NCBI GenBank assembly: GCA_945862295.1
Contig: CAMAXT010000003.1
Location: 1-64,000 of the forward strand
DNA from: Pseudobacteriovorax antillogorgiicola
Lineage (GTDB): Bacteria; Bdellovibrionota_B; Oligoflexia; Oligoflexales; CAIYRB01
Length of the DNA: 64,000 nucleotides
Direction of reading: 5' to 3'
Below are positions 43,687 through 53,652 of the stretch, in pieces (within the stretch, counting starts at the first letter, position 1; each line of letters opens with the position of its first letter). The notes under the pieces are model-generated. The model was not told where the DNA came from. It ran no database searches and saw nothing but the letters and a program-made list of their open reading frames with translations. Made by a program: the position numbers and the translations under genes.

Positions 43687-43950
43687 AAAATGAGGATAGC
43701 CTTCTATCTTCATCACTCTTCTTCACCCCAAACCAACTAAAACCTACCCATCCTCCTAAAACTACTGAAATATTGTGATTCTATGACTCACAAATTAACC
43801 CCCTCATTGCCCCTCAAAAATCTCAGCAGGCAAAAGTACAAACGAGTCGTGACCTTCCCTATAACTAATCATGAGCCAATTGCGGAAACCCTGACGCACG
43901 GCGAGATAAGCAATCGATAACCAAATCAAACGTCAATGGGAGTCTTAGGA

Positions 43951-44874
43951 ATGAAAACAATCCTGATACTTTTGGGAAGCATGAGCTTAGTTTTAAGCTG
44001 CAACTACTCAAGGGTCAAAACAACAGCCGCACCGCCGAGTGAAAATCAACCTGGCTCAATCACTGACAGCCAATGGCTAACGCAGAACTTATTCCAAGCC
44101 CGTTGTGCCAGTTGCCACAATAGCGGCAGGCAACCTGGCGGACATAAATTCGAAACAGAAAAAGACCTACTAGACAACGTCGTTAGAAAGACAATCGTTG
44201 CTGGGTCTCCATCTACAAGTTCTATATACACAATTATAGAAAGCGGCGCGATGCCGACACGCGGCGACAAAGCTACTCCAACAGAACTCTCAGTCCTATC
44301 ATGCTGGATCACTGAAGGGGCTACAGCGGATTCAACAACCTGCGTACAAAAATTTGGACTAAGCGGCACTGCAAATCCGGGTGGAAACCCAGGGTCAGGA
44401 ACCCCAACACCTATCCCAACATCTACACCAACACCTACTCCATCACCTACACCTGACCCAGGGAACGACGACGGTGGAGGTGACGACAATGGCGATGATG
44501 ATGACAACGGTGATGACGACAACAACGGCGAAGATGATAACGGCGGTAATGACGATGACGGCAATGGCGAAGGCGGCGGCGATGGTGGAGAGGTTCCGGT
44601 TGTTATGTTCTCAGAAATCCAGCAACCAATTCTTACAGACCGTTGCGCCGGTTGCCACGGGTCTGAAAATCCCGCTGCACACGTCGTCCTTTTAAGTCTC
44701 GAAAATATTAAAAATCCCACTACTGGTCCTGCGTTAGTACAGTGCGGAAACGCAAGCGCGAGTTTGCTTTATACAGTCGTAGCATCTGATGACATGCCGG
44801 CATTTTCTGAAGCTCTGTCACCGGATCTGAAACTTAAATTGAAAAACTGGATCGATGGTGGGTGCCAACCGTGA
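43951..44874 (+). CDS. dihaem lipoprotein with Pro-Thr and Asp-Gly linker
   Basis: About 307 residues from ATG 43951 (GGGAG eight bases upstream). Lipobox VLSC then two cytochrome-like halves, each with one CXXCH: CASCH near residue 52 and CAGCH near residue 235, of the kind found in planctomycete-type cytochrome c domains. Between them lies a linker of Pro-Thr repeats followed by an Asp/Gly/Asn-rich acidic stretch. It probably tethers an electron carrier at the outer membrane. The stop overlaps the next start (GTGA), so the genes are coupled. The 264-bp gap before it holds no clear regulatory motif. Confidence 0.8.
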   Translation: MKTILILLGSMSLVLSCNYSRVKTTAAPPSENQPGSITDSQWLTQNLFQARCASCHNSGRQPGGHKFETEKDLLDNVVRKTIVAGSPSTSSIYTIIESGAMPTRGDKATPTELSVLSCWITEGATADSTTCVQKFGLSGTANPGGNPGSGTPTPIPTSTPTPTPSPTPDPGNDDGGGDDNGDDDDNGDDDNNGEDDNGGNDDDGNGEGGGDGGEVPVVMFSEIQQPILTDRCAGCHGSENPAAHVVLLSLENIKNPTTGPALVQCGNASASLLYTVVASDDMPAFSEALSPDLKLKLKNWIDGGCQP

Positions 44875-46588: not shown

Positions 46589-46795
46589 TTTGTAGTTATG
46601 GGGGAAGTGATGATGCTTCACTCAATTTAATCCGGGTCCACCCGTGTTTAATCCGGGTCCACTCGAATTACGGATTACCAAACAAGAAAGAATCCCGAAG
46701 ACCGCGAAGTCTTCAGGGGGTTCTTGAAATGCGTAATCAGTCGGGAGACCCGGGCTCTCGGGTGGATCCGGATTAGTAGCGGATTAGTAGAAAAA
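46589..46795. repeat. intergenic nested palindrome region
   Basis: Between two convergent genes: TTAATCCGGGTCCACCCG at 46627-46644, a direct second copy at 46647-46665 and an inverted copy at 46759-46775 (one mismatch), enclosing a hairpin at 46683-46726 (outer CAAGAA/TTCTTG and inner GAAGAC/GTCTTC stems). The whole could fold as one large cruciform and would terminate both genes. It resembles a dispersed intergenic element, but no other copy is in the window. Confidence 0.6.
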
Positions 46796-47284
46796 TTAGT
46801 TGCGAACGCGGGCGGTAAGAATACCAGCGGCTTCATGCATAATAGATTGCTGAGCTTTTTCCATTAGAAGAATTTTTTCTGGCGAGTAGTTTCTTGAAGC
46901 AACGTAGGCTTTAGCTGCTTCAATGTTGATAGGGAAAATATCCTGATTATTTTTCTTGAAAAAGATTGAGCACTCTATGTCTTTAGCCACTTTCGTACAA
47001 GTTGCGTTGCTCTCTGGTCCAGATAGAGTTAAAGGGTCACTCGAGCTAACAGAATCAAGTTCGATCCACCGAGGATCAGCGCCATCAATTTGTTTTGGTA
47101 GCTTGTATCTTAAACTGATGAGGCCATTATTTTCGTTCCAATAAACATTTGTTGAGCGAAGAAGGACATCAACCTCTAAAAATTCACCAGCCGGAATTTT
47201 ATAAACACCGCCGTCAGCAGCGAACGATGTTGTTGCACCGACTAATAAAAAAGCAGCTACTGGAAGCGCACGTAGAATACTCAT
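46796..47284 (-). CDS. secreted protein of unknown family
   Basis: A 162-residue exported protein (signal peptide ending SFA), with two cysteines likely disulphide-bonded (about residues 95 and 108). It overlaps the regulator gene by four bases, so it is co-expressed and may be its target or sensor partner. The family is not recognised. Confidence 0.6.
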   Translation of the reverse strand: MSILRALPVAAFLLVGATTSFAADGGVYKIPAGEFLEVDVLLRSTNVYWNENNGLISLRYKLPKQIDGADPRWIELDSVSSSDPLTLSGPESNATCTKVAKDIECSIFFKKNNQDIFPINIEAAKAYVASRNYSPEKILLMEKAQQSIMHEAAGILTARVRN

Positions 47285-49206
47285 ACATTCTCCTTTAAAC
47301 CATCTGAGGATCGATAAAATGTGGCTCTACCTGAGCCGCATCGTTGAATAGCACCTAATTCGACCAGCTTAGAAAGATCTCTAGTTGCTGTTGCGTCGGA
47401 TACTTTCAGCCTGGCTATGAGATCCTTTGGCTGTATTTTTTCACCGCTGCCGGTCCATTTCAATACTTCAATTTGCCTGATATTTAAATGGGCCATAATG
47501 ACACTCAACCGAGAATTCTCATCAGCATCTTTTTGGTCATTCACCAGATCGAGATCATTTAACAATACGGGCGTATCTGCTAGATCGACAGGCGAATCAA
47601 CATCCCCGTCGTGTCCGGTTTGGTCGCCAATTTGGCGGAAAGATACCAGTCCGTTTTTGACTTTTACACTTTCCTGTAACCGGTAACCTACCTCTGATAC
47701 TTCAATCCATCTGCTAAACGGACCAAGTAGTTTTCTCGTCCGGGCGATCAACCCATATATTAGAGCATCATGCCTAAGAGGATTGTAATTTTGGCCCCAA
47801 AGCTTAGCCGTTAACTCGTCTTTCGTCAGGTCTCCAGCATTCGCGAGTGTGCATAGAAGCTTGCGAATAAGATGACTACAGCCTTCTTTTTTATGCTCGA
47901 CGTGACCGTTTGAAAAAATAGTCAAGGATCCAGGCTCGAGATCAAAAACAATGAGCATCTGCTCAGGATCGATACTCAGAGCGTTGCGAAGTAGACCAAT
48001 CCAACCGGTCGCAAAGATGTCTTCAATCGCACCTGGATTGCGCATTTGAATATCATCAATCAAATCGCCAAGTGGGTCTTCGCCACGCCGGAATTCTGAA
48101 ACTTGATATTCCTGGCGTGCAAGAATACGGCGCGCAACATAGCCACCAGTCTTGAAAGAGAGGACTCGCAATGTCGAAAAAATACCAGTCCGCTCACGGT
48201 GCATGCCGAGCTTTTCTAAAATGATCGCCTGCAAGCCAAGAGATTTAATAACAGAAGGGATGTGGGTCCGCTCTTGTGCTCTCTGGGATGCGTTGCGAGC
48301 AATCGAAAGCGCTACCGAATAACTACCCCTTTGCATCTGAACGGTCGCGAGACCAAGGTTATAGATCGTCTCAAGATAAGGATTGTCGACTTGATAAACG
48401 AGCGGACTAGCTTTATCTAGCAACTTAGAAGCTTCCTTGAGGTCGCCTTTCAGAGTCATAATTTTTGCGAGATGTACGTAGAGTGATGCTTTGGTGTAAG
48501 AGTCTTCGTAGCGGCATTTAAACAATGCGTCATTTAGTTCGGTAACAATTTGATCGGCGTGCGTGAGACCGTAGGTTGCACGGTAGAGGCGTTTTGCTGC
48601 ATCGAAAGTTTGTGTTAGTGCGCCCTGTCCGAGTTTCTGCGCTTTCGCTGCAGAAATCTCTAGGCTCTTCAGCCCTGCTCTTATCTGTCCCAATTGCAGT
48701 TGGACATGACCGCATAATTCATGAGCAAGTGCAGCACCATAAGCATAGTTGCCGCCGGTCGCTGCTTTCAATGATTTAACAACCCAGAAGTTCGCTTGAT
48801 GGAAGTATCCAGTGGTGTACCGGAAAAATGCTAAACCTTGAAAAACATAGAACTGAATTTTATCGATATCACTTTGCGACGCAGAATTTGAATTTATCCA
48901 AACGGACCCTTGCTTTAGATTTCTCAGGAACAGCTGCTGCGCCGTTTTCGTTCGCCGCTCTCTACAAACAGCTAAGGCATAGAAAAATCTCGCTATGATC
49001 AGATCAGGGGCGGCCAGCTTGTTTTCATAGCTCTCATAAAGCCCTTCAGCTTCCGCGGTCCGACCGAGAAAGGAGAGAGCTCCAACAATCCATGGAATGG
49101 ACGGCAGATCAGCAACAAACGCTGGCGAATCAATGGTTTCGGCCAGGATTTCATTGTATCTTCCAGCTGACTGGAGGGATTCAAGTTTTGAGCTTATAGA
49201 TTCCAT
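47281..49206 (-). CDS. TPR protein with two winged-helix DNA-binding regions
   Basis: 641 residues. Residues 1-390 are TPR-like helical repeats. Residues about 420-510 form a winged helix of OmpR/PhoB or Lux-type character (LWGQNYNPLRHDALIYGLIARTR), and residues about 570-641 another helix-turn-helix (LIARLKVSDATATRDLSKLVELGAI), DeoR-like. It is a cytoplasmic regulator that probably senses a ligand or partner through the TPRs. It reads through into the secreted protein gene. No operator is visible. Confidence 0.72.
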   Translation of the reverse strand: MESISSKLESLQSAGRYNEILAETIDSPAFVADLPSIPWIVGALSFLGRTAEAEGLYESYENKLAAPDLIIARFFYALAVCRERRTKTAQQLFLRNLKQGSVWINSNSASQSDIDKIQFYVFQGLAFFRYTTGYFHQANFWVVKSLKAATGGNYAYGAALAHELCGHVQLQLGQIRAGLKSLEISAAKAQKLGQGALTQTFDAAKRLYRATYGLTHADQIVTELNDALFKCRYEDSYTKASLYVHLAKIMTLKGDLKEASKLLDKASPLVYQVDNPYLETIYNLGLATVQMQRGSYSVALSIARNASQRAQERTHIPSVIKSLGLQAIILEKLGMHRERTGIFSTLRVLSFKTGGYVARRILARQEYQVSEFRRGEDPLGDLIDDIQMRNPGAIEDIFATGWIGLLRNALSIDPEQMLIVFDLEPGSLTIFSNGHVEHKKEGCSHLIRKLLCTLANAGDLTKDELTAKLWGQNYNPLRHDALIYGLIARTRKLLGPFSRWIEVSEVGYRLQESVKVKNGLVSFRQIGDQTGHDGDVDSPVDLADTPVLLNDLDLVNDQKDADENSRLSVIMAHLNIRQIEVLKWTGSGEKIQPKDLIARLKVSDATATRDLSKLVELGAIQRCGSGRATFYRSSDGLKENV

Positions 49207-49267: not shown

Positions 49268-50269
49268 CTATTTTAAACTCGAGGCCCTCCACATCGTTTT
49301 TTCCATTTGAGATCGGTAAGATAGGATCAAAATGCCTCCCCATACCAAAAGCATATAAGCCAGACTTATAGCTGGTAACCCAGTAAACAAACCCGTCCGT
49401 AAGGCTGCCATTTCCATGAACGGCGCACAGGCTACCATCAGATATTTCGCAGACTTATCGAGTTTGTCGAACTTAGCTTCACAAGCGATCACCGCAAACA
49501 CCGCCGGAAAGATCGTCAGCCCGCTCATCACCACCCAACCTTCAAACCCAACTAACCAACCAATCAAAAGTGAATACAGAGCTGCGAGTGCAATCTCGTG
49601 TGCAATTTTCCAAAACCGCACAGACAAGATTGCAAACACGACGATGCCTAGCGCTTCGCTTTCAATAAAAAATATTTCTGAGAAGCCACGAAAGTAAGCG
49701 GTCGTTAACGCTGCAAAACTTACTGACTCGACAACCTCACCCGCTGGCAAACGAAACCAGTGAATAACACTTCCAGCCGAGACATACCAAAGTACCCACA
49801 CAGTAAAGATGTAAGGCAAAACCAGAATCGGCAGATTCCAAGGTAGAAGAAGTCTTTTCGAAATCAACGCGAACATACTAACCAAAGCTGGAGCGATCAG
49901 ACACATTGCAAAGAGTGACGTTAAACTCGCAGAAAAAGCTGCCAAAGCGAGCCCTAGAAAGATACCGTTAACTGCTAAGGATGAGTCAACAATGCCGGCA
50001 CGATCGGTTTTTAAAAGGCGGCCGTACTGAATAGCTAAGAAGGCGCAGATAAAACTTGCAGCAGCATGCTTAGGCGAGAATGCAAAGAGCGCGATGCCAA
50101 GGGTAATAGCAAATATTTTGCTGTTATTAAAAAATGTGTTGCTCAGGCCATCCAAGAAAGGACACGCAACGACTTCAAAAGCTTGCTTTGCAATTCTTGA
50201 AACAGGCGATGCCACCTTTGTATTTGGCAGTACAGCACTAATATCATTTATTCTTAAAGACTGACCCAT
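49268..50269 (-). CDS. urea transporter (UT family)
   Basis: About 333 residues with some ten membrane helices. UT features are VVACPFLDGLSNTFFNNSKI near the start, the internal LPILVLPYIFTVW repeat motif and NGIFLGLALAAF. It is a channel for urea or a similar small amide. ATG 50269 is set by a perfect GGAGG six bases upstream, so the start overlaps the preceding gene by 16 bases. It is the last gene of the ligase-decarboxylase operon and may move its small product or substrate. Confidence 0.85.
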   Translation of the reverse strand: MGQSLRINDISAVLPNTKVASPVSRIAKQAFEVVACPFLDGLSNTFFNNSKIFAITLGIALFAFSPKHAAASFICAFLAIQYGRLLKTDRAGIVDSSLAVNGIFLGLALAAFSASLTSLFAMCLIAPALVSMFALISKRLLLPWNLPILVLPYIFTVWVLWYVSAGSVIHWFRLPAGEVVESVSFAALTTAYFRGFSEIFFIESEALGIVVFAILSVRFWKIAHEIALAALYSLLIGWLVGFEGWVVMSGLTIFPAVFAVIACEAKFDKLDKSAKYLMVACAPFMEMAALRTGLFTGLPAISLAYMLLVWGGILILSYRSQMEKTMWRASSLK

Positions 50270-50865
50270 TGAAAGCCTCCTAGGGTTTGATGCTGCCACT
50301 GCAAAACTTCTGATGACTCTACGCGTACTGCAAAATGCCCGTTGTGACCTTTTGTGATATCTGCGTCAAGCCAGACACCGTCAGTTGGATCGTAAAGTTC
50401 GCAGCGACTGTCAGACGTTTTTACAGCACAGATCTCGTGATAGACGAAATTCTTAGAAACCCAAGGAAGGGAGTTTGCCGCGCCGTCCCAGCGTTTTTGC
50501 CAATGACTCGTGGCGGACTGTTGCTGAAGACGTAGCACCTGCGCATCAAAGCACTCGATACCTTTCGCAGCAAAGATTAGATTTGCAAAGGCTCGAAATA
50601 GACCGCAATCGATAACCGGCAAACTAACTGCTTCACACCAGTATACAGGCCATGCGGATGGTCCCCATTCATAAAAAGTTTTTAGCCATCCAGGTCCCGC
50701 GAGGCGCGCCCCATCGGTGACGCTGAAATCAAAGGACCTCGCCATAGCAACCAGCCAGTTCCGTGCGTTCTTGCAACAATCCTTTCCCGCGTGCGACTGC
50801 ACGTCAGGACAATTGTTTCTTATGATCAAGTTATTTTGTTCAATAACCGCCGCGGCCAAATTCAT
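50254..50865 (-). CDS. transglutaminase-like cysteine protein
   Basis: A 203-residue protein with a likely catalytic triad of the transglutaminase-like superfamily: Cys87 in IDCGLFRAFANLIF, His143 in VYHEICAV and Asp159 in ELYDPTDGVWLD, spaced as usual. No signal peptide. Relatives cleave or form amide bonds. Start ATG 50865 has GGAG eight bases upstream; it overlaps the fusion-enzyme gene by 26 bases and the urea-transporter gene by 16 bases, so all three are translated together. Confidence 0.65.
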   Translation of the reverse strand: MNLAAAVIEQNNLIIRNNCPDVQSHAGKDCCKNARNWLVAMARSFDFSVTDGARLAGPGWLKTFYEWGPSAWPVYWCEAVSLPVIDCGLFRAFANLIFAAKGIECFDAQVLRLQQQSATSHWQKRWDGAANSLPWVSKNFVYHEICAVKTSDSRCELYDPTDGVWLDADITKGHNGHFAVRVESSEVLQWQHQTLGGFQWVSL

Positions 50866-53086
50866 AACTCATGCTCCTTTCGTAAGCGCCTGCATCACCA
50901 ATAATAATTCTGTCACCGATGGCAATGTCATCTGGCAAATCAAGACCGTTTGAGACGATGTCGTCTTCCATACAGATCCGGCCAAGAACTTTGGTTCTGC
51001 CATTGCCGATTTTTACCAGGGTTTGCCCTGGTTTCTGCAAAAAGAATCGGTGCGGATAAACACCAATCAGAGGAAGCTCAGCGATACAAGTGTCAACAAC
51101 AATCTCAACCGGGAGATCGCCAGTACGACGAACGTCAACAATTGTCGTTACCAGTGCCATCGCATCTTGCGTCATCGCTCGGCCAGGCTCAATGATGACA
51201 CGCTCGACGTGTTCTAAACTTTGCCGCATGAATGCTACGATCTCAGTCCAAGGAATTGTGAAAAGATCTCTCGGGTGGTAGCCGCCACCCATATCGATAA
51301 CTGATACCTTCTTGCTCGTGGCCGCTTCGATGTTAAGCGCCCAAACAAGCATCGACTCAACAGCATCCTGCCAATGACTATTGCCGATAAGGTTGCTGGC
51401 TAGGTGCAGATGCACGCCGAATTTAATATGGCTAGGGATCTCTGAAATCACTTGGCACAGTTCGTTGAATTTAGCCGGCGTGTCAATTTCAATGCCAAAT
51501 CTAGATTTAAAACCGGGAATCTTTAAACGAACACCCCAGACTTGGTCGCTTCTATTTGATTGAATTAAGCGCTTAAGTTCTTCAACAGAGTCGGCGAAGA
51601 CAGCGTAGAGACCGTCAAAAGACTCCATACTCATCGGCCACCACTTCGCAGGACCGTTTAAAATAATTTCAGATTTATTCCAACCAGTCTCTACCGCTCG
51701 TTTGACCTCGAGCATACTGATGCATTCACCAAGCATACCGGCGTTGCGAGCAGATTTACAAAACACTTCGTCAGGATTTGTTTTAATACTGTAACCGGCC
51801 ACAAAACCGATCGACTTATTTTCTATAAGAAACTCTTTGATCGCCGAAAAATTCTTTTGCAGCATGCCCGGTAAGACCAATCGCTCAGGCGTTGGTCGCG
51901 CTTCAGAGATTTCGTCTCTAAGGTATGGCTCGACATCAGAGATCAGAATCAAATCATCAGCCTCAGATACAGCTGCAGCGAACTTATGTTCAACCTCACG
52001 AGAATCCTTGTCGATAATATCAACCAAACTCGCCATTCCAGCGCCGTATTTTCCTGACATTGAAATTTGCCCATGCAGCGGCTCAGAAACCAAAGGTAGA
52101 GGCGTGTGCTCAAGCACCGGAATCTCTGTCACCACGCGGGTGAACTGATTGCTGCGCGGCGATGACGTCACCTCTGGCTTGAGACCGGTGAACGCTTCGA
52201 AAAGCATTGCTGGTAGATTTATTCCTGCGATCGCCGTACCAAAGATCCATGCTGGAAACCTTGGGTTCATTTCCATAAACCAAAGCTTGCCGTCACTGTC
52301 TTTTAGCAACTCAATTTCAGCGCCGCCGCTCCAATTAATGTTCTTAACGGCGACTGCTAGGTGTTCTCGTAAGTATGTTTCCAGAGGCTCGATCTTTCCT
52401 GACCAGGTCTTGCCATCAGGAGTCGTGACACGCTTGCGCATATATACGGCGTCTAGGAGTTGTCCTTCCTTTGCAGAAAAGCAGATGCTTTCCTCGACAC
52501 CTTTTTTATGGGCTTGGAGAAAGAGCTTATCTGAAGACCATTTCATACTGAGGTGGCTTCTTTGCGCGGAAAAAGTCTGCCAATTTCCTATGAAACTGGC
52601 ATCGTGGTATGGACCTTTAAGCCAAAGACGCCACGCACTGCGACGACAGAAATCATGGATCTCGGTCTCATGACAATTGATCGTAAGAGTTTCCGGAACA
52701 CCGAAAGGCAAAAACTCAGTGACTGATGCATAGGGTTTGCTCGCTGCCCTTAATGCGGACGTTGCTGGTGACAGCAGTCGCGGGTGATAGCCGATATTTT
52801 TCGCTAGCCATATAGTCTCAAGATCTAACGTTGGAATGTAGTACCCGCCTTCATCCAGAACTGTCTGAATAAAAGTTTTGTGCGTATCTAAGTCCATCAA
52901 ATCCCAACTAGGATGAACAATAGTTTCATCAAATACATCGTGGTGCAGACCAGAACTTCCCGCCCAATAATCCATTCCTATGATTTTAATATTGGGATAG
53001 GATTCGCGAATTGCGCGGGCGACACCTATGCCCGCCGAAGGGCTTGGACCTGAGTAGAGACCTGAAATTAAAAGTTTGTTCGTCAT
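50840..53086 (-). CDS. ATP-grasp ligase fused to a fold-III PLP decarboxylase
   Basis: About 748 residues from ATG 53086, where an ATP-grasp domain begins (TNKLLISGLYSGPSPSAG). Its ATP/Mg site is around WFMEMNPRFPAW, similar to PylC-type amino acid ligases. Residues about 400-748 are an alanine-racemase/DAP-ornithine decarboxylase-type domain: AGYSIKTNP (PLP Lys), IDMGGGYHP, IIEPGRAM and the end GDAGAYERSMSYEFGRGG. The active-site Cys region is DTCIAELP. The protein could join a carboxylate to an amine and decarboxylate an amino acid. Its start could also be 53146, but that lacks homology. Confidence 0.85.
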   Translation of the reverse strand: MTNKLLISGLYSGPSPSAGIGVARAIRESYPNIKIIGMDYWAGSSGLHHDVFDETIVHPSWDLMDLDTHKTFIQTVLDEGGYYIPTLDLETIWLAKNIGYHPRLLSPATSALRAASKPYASVTEFLPFGVPETLTINCHETEIHDFCRRSAWRLWLKGPYHDASFIGNWQTFSAQRSHLSMKWSSDKLFLQAHKKGVEESICFSAKEGQLLDAVYMRKRVTTPDGKTWSGKIEPLETYLREHLAVAVKNINWSGGAEIELLKDSDGKLWFMEMNPRFPAWIFGTAIAGINLPAMLFEAFTGLKPEVTSSPRSNQFTRVVTEIPVLEHTPLPLVSEPLHGQISMSGKYGAGMASLVDIIDKDSREVEHKFAAAVSEADDLILISDVEPYLRDEISEARPTPERLVLPGMLQKNFSAIKEFLIENKSIGFVAGYSIKTNPDEVFCKSARNAGMLGECISMLEVKRAVETGWNKSEIILNGPAKWWPMSMESFDGLYAVFADSVEELKRLIQSNRSDQVWGVRLKIPGFKSRFGIEIDTPAKFNELCQVISEIPSHIKFGVHLHLASNLIGNSHWQDAVESMLVWALNIEAATSKKVSVIDMGGGYHPRDLFTIPWTEIVAFMRQSLEHVERVIIEPGRAMTQDAMALVTTIVDVRRTGDLPVEIVVDTCIAELPLIGVYPHRFFLQKPGQTLVKIGNGRTKVLGRICMEDDIVSNGLDLPDDIAIGDRIIIGDAGAYERSMSYEFGRGGY

Positions 53087-53205
53087 GTAGTTTTTGCTCA
53101 CAGAATTAAAGGCTACCAATGTCCTCACGACCGAGTTTAGGGACATGCGGGAAGGGTTGGTACTACCTTGAGCTGCGAAGAATGAGGCGATCTGAAGAGA
53201 TATAA

Positions 53206-53652
53206 ATGATTAGAATCAAAGAAAAAAAGCGACCAACGGCCTTTCGGCGGGCGGTAGTGCAACGCCACCCAATGGGTTGCGCAGTGGCATGTGTGGCCTT
53301 TTCACTAGGCCTTTCTTACGACAAAGCTCTTAATTTTTTTCGCATAAAAAAAAATGCCTGGCTCAACGGTTTCATGTGCCCTGAGATCACCGCCATATTA
53401 AACGCCTCAAGCCAAATCGACTACAAATGGCGTCAAGTGAAAGGACCTCAAAGTAGTAAGTCATTGGCTCCAATGACCATCGTCTTCTGTAAACCTTCAA
53501 GGCACTATCCGCACGGACACTTCCTAGTTAAACGAAAAGAAGGTGAATTCATGAATCCCTGGATTAATTTTCCAGAGATCGCACCCGCCAAAGCCGGATT
53601 TCAGTCTAAGTTGCCATCTAAAATTAGCTACGTAATCGAGCCATCTACCTAA
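53206..53652 (+). CDS. C39-like cysteine peptidase, single domain
   Basis: A 148-residue protein with peptidase C39-like features: Gln19 and Cys25 in VVQRHPMGCAVACVAF, then His105 in YPHGHFLVKRKEG, followed by NPW where an Asp is usual. No ABC transporter domain is attached, unlike bacteriocin exporters. It diverges from the ATP-grasp/decarboxylase operon with 119 bp between starts, so it may share control and act on the product. The third catalytic residue being Asn makes activity uncertain. Confidence 0.68.
   Translation: MIRIKEKKRPTAFRRAVVQRHPMGCAVACVAFSLGLSYDKALNFFRIKKNAWLNGFMCPEITAILNASSQIDYKWRQVKGPQSSKSLAPMTIVFCKPSRHYPHGHFLVKRKEGEFMNPWINFPEIAPAKAGFQSKLPSKISYVIEPST

Follow-up and report, generated by a model that had tools for sequence, protein, structure and literature searches.

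In butirosin biosynthesis, the ATP-grasp ligase BtrJ is followed by the alanine-racemase-fold decarboxylase BtrK, which acts on a joined glutamate. In the rhizoferrin pathway, an ATP-dependent ligase of the nonribosomal peptide synthetase-independent siderophore (NIS) synthetase type, FigB, joins an amino acid and a carboxylate, and FigC, a pyridoxal phosphate (PLP) decarboxylase of the same fold as BtrK, acts on the conjugate; in FigC, SbnH, AcsE, MccE and BtrK alike, the amino acid carries another moiety before it is decarboxylated (PMC7857480). Here we describe a gene cluster of Pseudobacteriovorax antillogorgiicola (assembly GCA_945862295.1) where a single chain combining an ATP-grasp ligase with a FigC-related decarboxylase is encoded together with a transglutaminase-like (TG-like) protein and a channel of the UT (urea transporter) family. 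The cluster lies in the first 64,000 nucleotides of contig CAMAXT010000003.1 (hereafter the window, meaning this whole stretch at its full length). The gene set and its linkage are conserved, and both enzyme domains as well as the Cys-His-Asp (TG-like) protein have complete sets of active-site residues. On balance, and with somewhat better than even confidence, we read the cluster as a biosynthetic system dedicated to ligation followed by decarboxylation and equipped with a membrane channel. The features of the core cluster are as follows.

50840..53086, minus strand: fusion of an ATP-grasp ligase and an alanine-racemase-fold PLP decarboxylase, 748 aa from the Met at 53086 (768 aa from the ATG at 53146)
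52112..53086, minus strand: ATP-grasp domain of the fusion, residues 21-345 in the 768-aa numbering, with Foldseek match 2pn1
50840..51913, minus strand: PLP decarboxylase domain of the fusion, about residues 412-768, with K455 and the C725-M726-x-x-D729 loop
50254..50865, minus strand: TG-like protein, 203 aa, with Cys87-His143-Asp159
49268..50269, minus strand: UT family channel, 333 aa from an ATG with AGGAGG, assigned by Pfam

As the initial annotation had said, the fusion and TG-like genes overlap by 26 bases (50840-50865) and the TG-like and UT genes by 16 bases (50254-50269). The second and third genes both have strong ribosome-binding sites within the preceding gene, namely AAAGGAG at the TG-like start and AGGAGG upstream of the UT ATG at 50269. 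Comparison with orthologues, which begin at the Met at 53086, supports that position as the likely start of the fusion rather than the longer ATG at 53146. The reading frames, strands and ends of the proposed three-gene overlapping operon thus stood, while the operon itself extends beyond those three genes.

The cluster is also carried by G033 and G037, two genomes from a different family of this order, with protein identities of 47-48% for the fusion, 37-38% for the TG-like protein, 24-30% for the UT channel, 32-33% for a putative regulator and 27-30% for a secreted protein. The same genes overlap there, with 4 bases shared by the TG-like and UT genes when UT is started at the aligned ATG, and the stretch 5' of the TG-like start is almost the same in G033. 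A pseudogene reading of the G037 fusion, for which an inner TGA had been reported, was ruled out by coordinates that place the TGA upstream of the start codon. In both genomes the regulator gene differs in position and strand and the remaining flanking genes differ as well; the linkage is therefore not the mere unbroken inheritance of a long segment. Within the 58 genomes of the phylum, UT genes occur in six, all of them within a fused cluster or a split form described below (hypergeometric p 7e-7), and the Cys-His-Asp family occurs in exactly three, one copy each, which are the fusion genomes. The initial annotation would have lost its ground had the fusion been common without the other genes; in its own phylum it never is, and 3/3 fusion genomes carry both partners. 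The linkage of the three genes is not chance.

Among plasmids, the collection searched contained one full-length fusion homologue (32% identity), on a Streptomyces zaomyceticus plasmid, and an independent search with the Cys-His-Asp protein returned the same plasmid as its sole record (E 1e-9). The TG-like gene there lies directly 3' of the fusion with a 4-base overlap. A fatty acid desaturase gene stands after these two genes (L031:14926-16443) and hints at an acyl partner. No homologues were found in the viral contigs searched, and a scan of genome contigs with the single protein returned only biotin carboxylases.

In genomes of the window's own family (G015-G019), a split cluster encodes a PqqD-like protein, an ATP-grasp protein and a PLP decarboxylase as separate genes, followed by a UT domain fused to a Peptidase_M23 domain. 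Another membrane domain replaces UT before the same M23 domain in G016 and G019 (L029:5720-7783 and L030:12587-14677), where ABC transporter genes are adjacent. In a second phylum (that of record L003, possibly Myxococcota), the ligase was found in 21, UT in 22 and both in 20 of the 237 genomes (p 9e-26). In a larger sample of this phylum, 35 of the 43 UT places adjoin a decarboxylase gene and 2 more are UT-M23 fusions at contig ends, the remainder being plain, broken or EF-hand-fused UT genes. The co-occurrence of the fusion with UT genes was thus seen in the phylum of the window, and in the second phylum it is the related split ligase that tracks UT. In all, the proposal of an undescribed pathway is strongly supported, as far as a dedicated pathway is concerned, by co-occurrence across families and phyla, but not in its urea-like substrate. 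No description of this gene system was found in the open-access library searched; subscription papers may contain one.

Both decarboxylase Pfam domains score above cut-off in the fusion. The Lys K455 (SIKT), HxH, GGG, EPG[RK], the loop Cys and GAY are kept in 4/4 fusions aligned, and the conservation of K455 agrees with the role of PLP-binding residue on which the initial annotation depended. The decarboxylase had been labelled as of the diaminopimelate/ornithine type, a label that proved imprecise. If the fusion were a plain diaminopimelate or ornithine decarboxylase joined to an ATP-grasp domain and serving lysine or polyamine biosynthesis, this would explain its match to the lysA model (2e-25, far below the cut-off of that model) and the Protein Data Bank (PDB) matches to diaminopimelate decarboxylase (DAPDC). 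However, the specificity-helix Arg of DAPDC and its CES loop motif are both missing, the fusion scores 88.9 bits against a cut-off of 297.9 for the LysA equivalog of NCBIfam, and the genome has a separate LysA-like gene (G000:C91), so that the fusion is not the lysine enzyme. We rejected LysA or ornithine decarboxylase identity on the absent motifs and regard a role in lysine or polyamine biosynthesis as very improbable.

In place of CES, the fusion loop reads C-M-x-x-D, in agreement with the N-citrylornithine decarboxylase FigC. Against the sequences of solved structures, the window domain matches FigC (7e-15) and DAPDC (3e-15) equally, whereas for one split decarboxylase FigC is the best match (5e-57, versus 9e-42 for DAPDC and 2e-29 for BtrK), and in the tree the split decarboxylase family groups with FigC (97/92). 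The NCBIfam model for FslC, also an N-citrylornithine decarboxylase, has a cut-off of 500 bits and the window protein scores 69; by this score the fused decarboxylase is a relative of FigC/FslC and not a member. Searches by sequence and by structure support placing it with the decarboxylases whose substrates are ligated amino acids (FigC, BtrK) and not with DAPDC. Since the split decarboxylases have FigC as their best solved relative, a citrate-based, rhizoferrin-like siderophore pathway also comes into question. This we consider scarcely credible, given that neither an NIS synthetase nor an MFS exporter could be recognised adjoining the fusion, that citrate-contacting residues are not kept and that H357 of the FigC loop, near the citryl group, is replaced by Asp in the window and by Ile in the split form. 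The locus further differs from FigB/FigC in that the ligase is ATP-grasp and fused, and in having a TG-like protein and a UT channel where the siderophore pathway has an exporter.

The N-terminal domain falls below threshold in Pfam, and its fold was confirmed as ATP-grasp by the predicted structure: the model (predicted local distance difference test, pLDDT, 80) matches a carbamoyl-phosphate-synthase-like ATP-grasp protein (2pn1) with a Foldseek E of 2.6e-15. K177, E279, E292, N294 and R296 are invariant across the fusions, so that the domain has the fold, the Lys and the E-x-N-x-R metal/phosphate motif of ATP-grasp ligases. Its description as a PylC-like ligase was not borne out, as the window protein has no PylC Pfam match and the only one, at E 0.036, is in a relative.

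The split clusters suggest how the two enzymes may be held together. Every readable split decarboxylase carries, at a fixed place, an N-terminal tag of the type Y-x-x-P-[hydrophobic]-x-[K/R], and each split genome tested has one clear PqqD copy, located in the cluster. PqqD domains of the lasso type are known to recognise YxxP (PMC12710340). In the split clusters the PqqD-like adaptor would probably dock the separate ligase onto the decarboxylase via this tag. Neither a PqqD gene in the fusion genomes (G000, G033 and G037) or on the Streptomyces plasmid, nor a remnant of the Y-x-x-P tag in the fusion linkers, was found; we propose that fusing both enzymes would make the adaptor unnecessary. 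The arrangement recalls the lasso-peptide B1/B2 pair, a PqqD-like recognition element (RRE) of ribosomally synthesized and post-translationally modified peptides (RiPPs) with a transglutaminase-like protease, in that split clusters have the PqqD-like RRE and the tag and the window has the TG-like Cys-His-Asp protein. Here, however, there is no precursor peptide or cyclase, the tag is on an enzyme, and PqqD and TG-like genes are not found together.

These features also bear on a carrier-bound synthesis resembling that of butirosin or of PEARL pathways, in which the ATP-grasp enzyme would load an amino acid on a peptide or protein serving as carrier, where the PLP domain would decarboxylate it, and the TG-like protein and a C39-like protein would release it. 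In favour of this, the close solved relatives of the split decarboxylases include BtrK, whose substrate is a carrier-bound Glu, PqqD and the Y-x-x-P tag come from RiPP biosynthesis, and the fusion is flanked by two cysteine enzymes of the papain/TG type. On the other hand, no conserved small carrier reading frame of 60 aa or more was found among the neighbours, the tag is on the decarboxylase itself and the fusion genomes gave no PqqD. From the butirosin pair the locus also differs in that no acyl carrier protein was seen, a UT is present, and ligase and decarboxylase are in one chain. We consider synthesis on a carrier unlikely, though well worth keeping in view.

The identification of the third protein as a UT channel was borne out: it matches PF03253 near full-length with 80 bits against a cut-off of 25 (2e-22). 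Aligned to human UT, it keeps the Thr of the first half, the Thr of the second half is Ser, and both GQV-type Gln are replaced, by Asn and Glu. Because the conserved Gln/Thr pattern of the pore region is not present, we do not assume that this UT transports urea. Family membership speaks for urea nitrogen metabolism, in which the UT would import urea and its neighbours would be incidental. Yet of the phylum's six UT genomes five (G000, G033, G037, G015 and G018) gave no urease, and 4/5 urease genomes of the phylum lack UT; the UT therefore does not serve urea nutrition or assimilation here. Moreover, UT tracks the ligase in two phyla. Urea nutrition is already contradicted by these counts and urea nitrogen metabolism has, to our mind, almost no likelihood, and the guanidine-type or urea-like compound of the initial annotation was a guess that neither the missing urease nor the pore-near Asn and Glu favours. 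Co-occurrence with ureohydrolase (arginase) was uninformative, as it is in 55/58 genomes.

From typical UT urea transporters the family also differs in that relatives of the window channel are fused to M23. The UT-Peptidase_M23 fusion is found in L026:7253-9367, L064:8934-11138, L067:8628-10826 and about 35 other loci, and retains HxH and further His motifs. In UT channels of known structure, both termini are inside. If this topology applies, the M23 peptidase domain would lie in the cytoplasm, a strange location for an enzyme of the wall. Separately, a C-terminal EF-hand pair is present on UT proteins at L063:8655-10316 (by Pfam) and L119:6560-8167 (by alignment), both outside a ligase/decarboxylase cluster, suggesting that a bacterial urea channel may be controlled through calcium.

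In the TG-like protein, the Cys87-His143-Asp159 triad was indeed complete, with all three residues invariant in four homologues including that of Streptomyces and in the order of the transglutaminase-like superfamily. No match was found in Pfam or by PDB sequence profile. The structure model, for which the homologues were too few to give confidence, has a pLDDT of 47 and places the Cys at the start of a helix and the His and Asp on neighbouring strands; its Foldseek list is rich in transglutaminases and NATs, all with E > 0.2, so that the model only weakly supports a transglutaminase-like fold. One of these weak fold matches, pseudomurein endoisopeptidase, fits a modification of the cell envelope, in which the decarboxylase would make a diamine or amine for peptidoglycan or an envelope peptide and the TG-like or M23 enzyme would act on the wall. 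So does the UT-M23 fusion of the split clusters, whose downstream genes in the second phylum encode, among others, TPR and TPR/beta-barrel-like proteins that begin with signal-like sequences. But the window operon has no M23 domain, no signal peptide is evident in the TG-like protein and the M23 domain may itself be cytoplasmic. We judge an envelope role improbable.

Taking an ATP-grasp ligase in the same chain as a decarboxylase of the group acting on ligated amino acids, the natural reading would be ligation and then decarboxylation. The ATP-grasp domain would activate a carboxylate with ATP and join it to an amino-acid side chain, the fused PLP domain would strip the alpha-carboxylate from the conjugate to give an acyl-amine, and the TG-like enzyme may then transfer or hydrolyse the acyl or amide group, releasing the final small product. 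The UT channel would let this product, or a small precursor, cross the inner membrane, and a TPR/helix-turn-helix (HTH) protein would regulate the operon. The gene system probably produces a small molecule and carries it through the membrane.

Several points weigh against this reading. The decarboxylase domain of the fusion has diverged so far that it could not be placed, and the tree does not make it sister of the split family; the structure model does not confirm the TG-like fold; and no UT was found on the S. zaomyceticus plasmid that carries the fusion. The source genome is a metagenome-assembled genome (MAG) of 78% completeness, in which absences are soft. Finally, the UT pore is 2-3 A wide (PMC10541013), restricting what could pass, and the channel may carry a co-substrate or by-product instead of the product. 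More tentatively still, the system may be one that crosses phyla, with ATP-grasp enzyme and PLP decarboxylase working as one unit, either fused or RRE-docked via an enzyme-borne Y-x-x-P tag, and with its product passing the UT. If true, this would to our knowledge be the first biosynthetic role for UT channels and the first RRE serving as an enzyme-enzyme adaptor.

The neighbouring features in the window are the following.

47281..49206, minus strand: TPR/winged-helix (DeoR-like) regulator, conserved with the cluster
46796..47284, minus strand: secreted 162-aa protein without assigned function, conserved with the cluster
53206..53652, plus strand: C39-like (papain-like) cysteine peptidase-type protein, divergent from the fusion, with an orthologue at the same place in G033
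46694..46717, minus strand: terminator-like hairpin of 10 pairs with a T-rich tail, 3' of the strand's last gene, from a pattern scan only

The C39-like protein has a Q-x5-C..H..N pattern and 45% identity to its G033 counterpart, and is possibly a second cysteine enzyme of the pathway. Pattern hits in the region of the hairpin were no more numerous than in shuffles, and a promoter scan of the window region likewise gave sites no more frequent than in shuffled sequence. Further along the window (43936-44874), a gene encodes a haem-motif (CxxCH) protein in which a long PTPTP/GDDDN low-complexity spacer separates two CxxCH segments.

A large set of bacterial UT genes belongs to this ligase/decarboxylase system, so that to annotate them as urea transporters is probably misleading. 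With its split and fused forms, the system also allows a test of whether a PqqD-type recognition domain can act as an adaptor that links enzymes, and what it makes may be a new small natural product or an envelope component of poorly studied phyla.

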